In this document: in pieces, positions 13,233-13,452 of the stretch | Layout of the letters: each line of letters begins with the position of its first letter | How positions within the stretch are numbered: position 1 is the stretch's first letter | Source: a virus | Direction: 5' to 3' (one strand) | DNA: 64,000 nucleotides | IMG/VR virus record: IMGVR_UViG_3300022924_000001 | Coordinates: 64,001 to 128,000 of that record | Notes under the pieces: model-generated | The model's database searches: none | What the model saw: only the letters and a program-made list of their open reading frames with translations | Told to the model about the DNA's origin: nothing | Position numbers and translations under genes: made by a program

Positions 13233-13241
13233 CTATCTTTG
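13207..13241 (+). promoter_or_regulatory. promoter for the tRNA-like gene
   Basis: TATCTTTG (13234-13241) matches TAnnTTTG, with TTG at 13207-13209, 24 bases upstream. It lies 11 bases ahead of the first tRNA base, which suits direct transcription of a short RNA, and overlaps the end of the barrel-protein gene. Confidence 0.55.
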
Positions 13242-13252
13242 TATTATGAAAA

Positions 13253-13452
13253 GGGATAGTGGCGGAATTGGTAGACGCTAGCTTATGGGGCAAGATAGGA
13301 TTGAGGAAAGAAGATTGGGGTACACAAGTCTAGTAAATACCCGTTACCCAATTCAATCCTTTAAAGTTGATGAAAATATTAACCAGTATCCTTGTACGAG
13401 TGTAGACTAACATCAACCATATATCGTAAAGGTTCGAATCCTTTCTATCCCA
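13253..13452 (+). tRNA. tRNA(Leu)-like gene with a ~115-130 nt structured insertion
   Basis: The 5' part is a complete acceptor half and D-arm of leucine type (GGGATAG 13253-13259; GCG/CGC D-stem 13262-13278 around GAATTGGTAGA). The 3' part is a complete T-arm (AAAGG-TTCGAAT-CCTTT, 13428-13444), acceptor strand CTATCCC (13445-13451) and discriminator A; CCA is not encoded. Between them lie about 150 bases instead of about 45. AGCTT/AAGAT (13280-13296, one mismatch) can form an anticodon arm whose loop would read GGG. The remainder pairs into AGGATTGA/TCAATCCT (13297-13304 with 13353-13360), ATTGGG/CCCAAT, GTTGATG/CATCAAC (13366-13372 with 13411-13417) and a crossing AGTCTA/TAGACT (13327-13332 with 13403-13408). 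It may be an intron, an enlarged variable arm or a tmRNA-like molecule; which is undecided. Confidence 0.7.

Follow-up and report, generated by a model that had tools for sequence, protein, structure and literature searches.

A leucine-tRNA-like phage RNA with a pseudoknotted interior belongs to a large class whose shell is constant and whose interiors are hypervariable

The window, a stretch of 64,000 nucleotides, comprises positions 64001-128000 of the 133,478-base virus record IMGVR_UViG_3300022924_000001. It belongs to a tailed phage that carries terminase, portal and GroEL genes; the GroEL-type chaperonin (G000, L019:6097-7644) adjoins the packaging genes. The plus strand of the window encodes a tRNA-like RNA of 200 nt, whose features are as follows.

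13234-13241, plus strand: -7 promoter box of Bacteroidota type, TATCTTTG (TANNTTTG), seen in the sequence; it lies 11 nt before the 5' end of the RNA
13253-13452, plus strand: the whole tRNA-like RNA gene, 200 nt, recognized by the Rfam tRNA model, the elbow scan, CM R1 (227.5 bits) and the homologues L404 and L391
13253-13259, plus strand: acceptor stem, 5' strand GGGATAG; 7 of 7 positions paired, 6 of 7 with changes on both sides among the 3 homologues
13262-13278, plus strand: leucine-type D-arm, GCG GAATTGGTAGA CGC, seen in the sequence and identical in the homologues
13280-13296, plus strand: weak hairpin at the anticodon position, AGCTT (ATGGGGC) AAGAT; 4 of 5 pairs, one G.A mismatch
13297-13304, plus strand: helix H1a, 5' strand AGGATTGA, pairing with 13353-13360; AGGATGG/CCATCCT in L404
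13314-13319, plus strand: helix H1b, 5' strand ATTGGG, pairing with 13347-13352; both-side changes in 4 of 6 pairs
13327-13332, plus strand: crossing (loop-loop) helix, 5' strand AGTCTA, pairing with 13403-13408
13347-13360, plus strand: 3' strands of H1b and H1a, CCCAATTCAATCCT; shuffle test, homologues and covariation
13366-13372, plus strand: helix H2 at the variable-arm position, 5' strand GTTGATG, pairing with 13411-13417; both-side changes in 3 of 7 pairs
13380-13391, plus strand: conserved unpaired motif TAACCAGTATCC, identical in L404
13403-13408, plus strand: crossing helix, 3' strand TAGACT, covarying with 13327-13332
13411-13417, plus strand: H2, 3' strand CATCAAC; covariation
13427, plus strand: U48, the Levitt-pair partner of A15 in tRNA-Leu, kept as U across the class
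13428-13444, plus strand: T-arm AAAGG TTCGAAT CCTTT with a standard loop, seen in the sequence; the stem covaries
13445-13452, plus strand: acceptor stem, 3' strand CTATCCC, and discriminator A73, seen in the sequence

An earlier note on this DNA had described an intact tRNA(Leu)-like shell consisting of an acceptor stem with seven perfect pairs, a leucine D-arm, a T-arm and a discriminator A, and each of these parts can be located. The acceptor stem pairs 13253-13259 with 13445-13451, the discriminator is A13452 and CCA is not encoded. The D-arm carries A14, A15, G18, G19 and A20a, elements of leucylation reviewed in PMC9976931. Judged by sequence, the tRNA-Leu identity elements A73, G18G19 and A15-U48 are all present. 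In a regional, permissive search, the Rfam tRNA model (RF00005) spans exactly 13253-13452 with 30.3 bits against a gathering score of 29, accepting both flanks. In about 2.5 Mb of block-shuffled sequence, each pass gives about 0.3 matches to the elbow criterion. ARAGORN and the default Rfam cmscan, both run on the whole window, make no call at 13253-13452, because of the insert. The promoter that the earlier note saw ending 11 bases upstream corresponds to a promoter-like box. The extra length had been put at 115-130 bases; the interior between the D-stem and the T-stem measures 149 nt, or 131 nt when the small hairpin following the D-arm is taken for an anticodon arm.

These 131 nt (13297-13427) form two consecutive hairpins, the first of 8 bp plus 6 bp and the second of 7 bp, whose loops are joined by a 6-bp helix. 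None of 3000 dinucleotide shuffles contained two consecutive hairpins of 8 and 7 bp whose loops are linked by a 6-bp helix. Folded with pseudoknots left out, the RNA has an unremarkable energy (z = -0.34). A gap-pattern scan of IMG/VR recovered two homologues, L404 (4730-4930, minus strand) and L391 (3318-3515, minus strand), which with the window RNA make up a subfamily of three members. By tblastn, neither the L404 nor the L391 contig has a protein in common with the window phage in the regions compared. In the three-sequence alignment, 19 pairs are changed on both sides, compared with 7.5 +/- 2.0 in shuffles (0 of 500 as high) and 0-3 in slid structures. The crossing helix is 100% paired in all three sequences and changed on both sides in 3 of its 6 pairs: AGTCTA/TAGACT in the window becomes AGTTTG/CAAACT in L404 and AGTCGG/CCGACT in L391. 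Watson-Crick pairing is likewise kept in L404 where H1b changes from ATTGGG/CCCAAT to TTTGCG/CGCAAA and H2 from GTTGATG/CATCAAC to GTTTGTG/CACAAAC. H1a was scored partly unpaired in this count, in the case of L404 because MAFFT shifts the helix by one base. Unpaired GGTACACAAGT and TAACCAGTATCC are identical between the window and L404. Covariation among the homologues, which keep the compensatory pairs, confirms the four complementary pairings first noticed in the insert, including the crossing one; the compensatory changes, those in the crossing helix included, establish that the pseudoknot of the window RNA is real and conserved in shape.

The earlier note had offered three alternatives for this gene: a split tRNA gene with a new kind of short intron, a small tmRNA-like molecule and a giant variable arm. 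A short intron of a new kind, interrupting a tRNA-Leu gene and then removed, would account for a structured insert within an otherwise perfect tRNA shell. However, no excision gives a canonical leucine anticodon and variable arm in the window RNA or in its homologues L404 and L391, although the same test does recover an artificial positive control; Rfam group I and II models have no match in the region at E<=10, and the interiors of the relatives have no evident common splice-site signal. We regard an intron as very unlikely. The idea that the insert encodes the tag of a miniature tmRNA draws on the tRNA-like ends, the pseudoknots and an open frame of 41 codons (13285-13410), but no tmRNA model matches, the D-stem is full and the identity is leucine rather than alanine. 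The frame exists as described but is not conserved and was judged spurious: the ATG in L404 that matches its start is followed by a stop after 8 codons, and for this reason neither the frame nor the tandem TAG TAA (13331-13336), which is also present, carries any weight. A miniature tmRNA is the least credible of all the explanations considered here. The giant variable arm comes closest, in the modified form of a giant structured anticodon and variable region.

The window RNA is one member of a large class in which a constant shell is combined with hypervariable interiors. The pattern of a leucine D-arm and a T-arm with a widened middle occurs in at least 120 stretches of IMG/VR, and in most of the 78 RNAs read among the IMG/VR matches listed both the acceptor and the T-stem are fully paired. 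The same pattern in GTDB genomes gave 76 matches, of which roughly 30 are class-type by reading (in Bacteroides, Sphingobacterium, Riemerella, Cnuella, Christiangramia, Paenibacillus, lactobacilli and others) and the rest ordinary or artefactual, so that RNAs of this kind extend to cultured bacteria. Some matches on genome contigs were rejected because they are tandem tRNAs, arise from duplicated ends of tRNAs or lie in assemblies filled with N. Abundance figures from these scans are lower bounds. The TCTGGGG marine group, with its normal 7-nt anticodon loop, was left out of the class statistics, and the tRNA-likes of G011 and G003, which have no normal D-arm, were not counted. Non-leucine shells also exist (G004, G009, G041 and L376), and the predominance of leucine is partly due to search patterns built on the leucine D-arm. 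Phages related to that of the window by their DNA polymerase have long tRNA-likes of a different kind, 101-135 nt in length; the window RNA itself was not found in them. At the class RNAs, Rfam reports tRNA only, and the class has no family in Rfam 15 and no description in the open-access literature searched.

A blastn search of the insert against the INPHARED phage collection gave no homologue. Its matches in Polaribacter (L002, L005) and Staphylococcus (L007) are not class members, and those in Lactobacillus phages Satyr and Maenad are of the same general type as the class. The Polaribacter phages P12002L and P12002S encode near the genome end a mini tRNA of about 50 nt (L002:490-555 and L005:380-440) with an acceptor, a D-loop-like segment and a T-arm and without an anticodon arm. 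Unannotated leucine-tRNA-likes of about 105 nt (L003:1500-1610, L009, L014, L328 and L362) occur in the Lactobacillus plantarum phages Satyr and Maenad and in lactobacillus prophages, several with the T-loop GTGCAAATC instead of GTTCAAATC. According to ARAGORN or Rfam, two phage contigs also contain tmRNA genes (L170:19219-19639 and L197:5468-5866, both minus strand).

One shell sequence, AGTCAGGTGGCGGAATTGGTAGACGC...ACAGGTTCGANTCCTGTCCTGACT (AGTCAGG...CCTGACT), is present in 115 exact copies on 110 contigs, sometimes two or three copies per contig, and encloses 90 distinct interiors. These fall into 71 clusters at 68% identity, the cut-off used since clustering at 60% is uninformative given an alignment baseline of about 53%. 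Two near-identical Bacteroides prophages, L354 in B. congonensis and L376 in B. acidifaciens, have the same flanks on either side of the RNA but unrelated interiors. Similarly, two of the DNA-polymerase relatives of the window phage, G030 and G031, have a neighbouring protein that is 95% identical, near-identical flanks and the same shell, and their interiors are unrelated. The converse is also seen: interiors that are 80% identical reside in different shells (L204/L369 and L207/L376), with compensatory changes visible in their paired strands. Interiors swapped within shells and related interiors found across shells together indicate that shell and interior assort independently.

Other tRNA-like loci came to light on the same and other contigs. 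A second tRNA-like locus of the two Bacteroides prophages (L354:4665-4735 and L376:6827-6985, reverse) has the non-leucine shell GCCGGGGTAGCTCAGTTGG and identical flanks; it is 71 nt long in L354 and 159 nt in L376, with the extra 88 nt within the anticodon loop. A further tRNA-like RNA of 134 nt (L354:1224-1357 and L376:7744-7877, reverse) has a T-arm-like and a D-arm-like hairpin inside it, which gives the look of two tRNA elbows linked by way of their anticodon stems. Nested T-arms are also present in L400, L453, L235, L403 and G011. A phage group of 107-110 nt (GTAGACGTGAGTGGAATTGGTAGACC...; L190, L193, L208 and L219) has neighbouring genes in common and an anticodon helix of unusual length (9 bp in L219). 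Five IMG/VR class II tRNA-likes (L216, L227, L228, L249 and L252) combine a Leu-like D-arm with discriminator G, long variable arms and the 7-nt loop CTGTTTA or similar (anticodon GUU).

The elements of leucine identity are retained well beyond the window. U48 is found in 83 of the 90 AGTCAGG-shell interiors, where 27% would be expected (p = 6e-39); among the other shells, 56 of 60 have it. In E. coli, leucylation needs A15-U48, G18G19, A20a and A73, the last being the main leucine identity base; charging by LeuRS depends on A73 and elbow contacts, and the anticodon, the sequence of the variable arm and even the anticodon arm are dispensable (review PMC9976931). The retention of U48 also bears on the idea of a decaying tRNA pseudogene with random insertions. 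Phage tRNA genes do turn over, and ARAGORN does not call the window gene, but decay is already contradicted by the available evidence: all stems show compensatory changes, unpaired motifs are conserved, 7 of 7 acceptor pairs are kept in the homologues although their phages are unrelated, and U48 persists as above. We consider a pseudogene even less credible than an intron, if still above the tmRNA.

An anticodon arm of 5 bp and 7 nt is absent from most class interiors. Of the 62 RNAs in the first set, 14, among them the marine CTGTTTA group, combine a 5-bp stem with a loop of 7-9 nt; 26 RNAs whose anticodon arm is canonical, in many cases ordinary tRNAs, were excluded. These figures, together with the weak hairpin of the window, are relevant to a decoding tRNA, in which the hairpin at 13280-13296 would be a working GGG anticodon arm and the rest a giant variable arm; if charged by LeuRS, such a tRNA would place leucine at CCC codons. 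In the window hairpin, 4 of the 5 anticodon-stem positions do pair, and the 7-nt loop, ATGGGGC, has U33 before the GGG that it would read; some relatives have comparable 5-bp stems with 7-9-nt loops. However, the window stem is mismatched, weakly supported in L404 and neither clear nor recognizable in L391, most of the class has no such arm, and where loops exist at the anticodon position they are often complementary to the loop of the variable arm (e.g., L220). We consider decoding improbable.

The loop complementarity seen in good examples such as L220 and L376 has the same layout as that between the two big hairpins of the window. Class interiors as a whole are enriched for a stem that abuts the T-arm and whose loop pairs with an upstream strand (V-stem and pseudoknot; mean score 8.65 versus 6.18 in shuffles, Wilcoxon p = 2e-7). 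The pseudoknot test reaches p<=0.05 in 21% of clusters and about a quarter of individual interiors; with only about a quarter at this level, the interiors need not all share one architecture. Several of the class statistics were chosen after examples had been seen, and the covariation counts and U48 are least affected by this. A TANNTTTG box lies just upstream of 10 of 90 class loci, compared with 9 of 348 neighbouring stretches (Fisher p = 0.0015). Another tRNA is found within 1 kb at 39 of 90 loci, and no partner protein is common to the neighbourhoods across class loci. ARAGORN calls just 1 of the 90 class RNAs.

Taken together, we propose, with a probability of roughly 0.6, that the window gene encodes an unspliced, non-coding, 200-nt leucine-tRNA mimic whose variable core probably acts in defence or counter-defence. 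The leucine-tRNA shell (acceptor, D-arm, T-arm and elbow) carries, at the position of the anticodon and variable arms, a pseudoknotted domain made of two hairpins with loops paired to each other, and the RNA is a giant form of a phage and prophage RNA class in which the shell stays constant and the interior is hypervariable and exchangeable. Transcription would start from its own promoter or proceed within tRNA clusters, as the promoter boxes and neighbouring tRNAs partly show. From the intact shell, we infer a tRNA-like maturation and stabilization by RNase P, 3' processing and CCA addition. The host LeuRS would probably leucylate the product, as suggested by the conserved A73, G18G19 and A15-U48, and normal decoding would not be possible given a missing or masked anticodon loop. 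The variable core would then bind or mislead a variable factor of the host or of a rival phage, most likely in defence or counter-defence against tRNA-targeting nucleases or toxins. Such a role in conflict would explain the rapid replacement of interiors. We favor it because of the constant chassis, the fast-replaced core in near-identical phages and the known biology of tRNA targeting.

A different role would be that of a tRNA-scaffolded regulatory RNA, in which the shell only stabilizes and the loops base-pair to host or phage mRNAs. An intact shell for processing and stability, exposed loops and hypervariable cores are all in line with it. However, the phage's own genome contains no complementary site beyond chance (the longest is 13 nt, against 12-16 in shuffles), and leucine identity elements such as U48 are kept beyond the needs of a mere scaffold. 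We find this role unlikely, though less so than decoding.

With the leucine-tRNA mimic as the preferred reading, a decoy or inhibitor that shows a tRNA elbow with a foreign anticodon and variable region would fit; a mimic of type III antitoxin RNA may be another specific version of the decoy idea. More tentatively, and with somewhat less than even odds, the mimics may constitute a polymorphic phage RNA system whose members can be leucylated and serve as decoys or inhibitors, directed at variable defences or toxins that target tRNA. The constant leucine-tRNA shell would here present a modular, rapidly exchanged pseudoknot domain, evolving in the style of polymorphic toxin/immunity or receptor-binding modules, but as RNA. 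The class thus points to a new kind of RNA weapon or shield in the warfare between phages and bacteria; its structure and its constant shell with an exchangeable core are established by the data, whereas we infer its charging, binding partner and function from the features above. If true, this would be a common phage RNA class, so far unannotated and overlooked because tRNA finders reject such RNAs. It would also be a naturally occurring tRNA mimic that does not decode and that joins an unchanging chassis to a hypervariable cargo; neither Rfam nor the literature searched shows such a combination. Whether phages blunt tRNA-targeting immunity with tRNA mimics becomes a testable question, and RNA engineering gains natural tRNA-scaffolded pseudoknots.

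Several known systems resemble the mimics in part. Group I introns in tRNA-Leu(UAA) are likewise structured, pseudoknotted inserts in a tRNA-Leu gene; the insert of the window, in contrast, is too short, matches no such model and leaves no canonical exons after removal. tmRNA (RF00023) also joins tRNA-like ends to pseudoknots, whereas the window RNA has no conserved tag ORF, has a full D-stem and leucine identity and is not matched by the model. The bacterial Y RNA YrlA is a tRNA mimic, with a tRNA-like module that has no decoding function; it works with Rsr/Ro60 and has no free acceptor-stem end. A review of such RNAs, PMC6047535, is among the references of PMC8058203. The window RNA shares the tRNA-like module but ends in a free acceptor stem, and Y RNA families in Rfam 15 give no match for it at E<=10. 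Type III antitoxin RNAs (ToxI and its relatives) are small, diverse pseudoknot RNAs with sequence-based specificity that phages mimic. Unlike the mimics, they have no tRNA shell and are arranged as tandem repeats; no type III antitoxin family of Rfam matches the mimics, and no neighbour gene is common across the class. Ordinary phage tRNA-Leu (RF00005, class II) has the same acceptor, D-arm, T-arm, A73, G18G19 and A15-U48, and like the mimics is sometimes found in tRNA clusters. In the mimics, however, the anticodon arm is missing, masked or replaced and the interior is hypervariable across the class, and the window RNA, with its pseudoknotted core of 131-149 nt, is missed by ARAGORN. A further parallel is offered by phage tRNAs that counter tRNA-cutting defences. 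Septu and retron-Eco7 cut the variable loop of tRNAs, and phage tRNAs neutralise both (PMC13096335); according to work cited there, OLD removes anticodon arms and a viral tRNA neutralises PARIS. These too are phage RNAs with tRNA identity, in which the variable loop matters to a defence nuclease, but they decode, whereas the mimics appear unable to do so.
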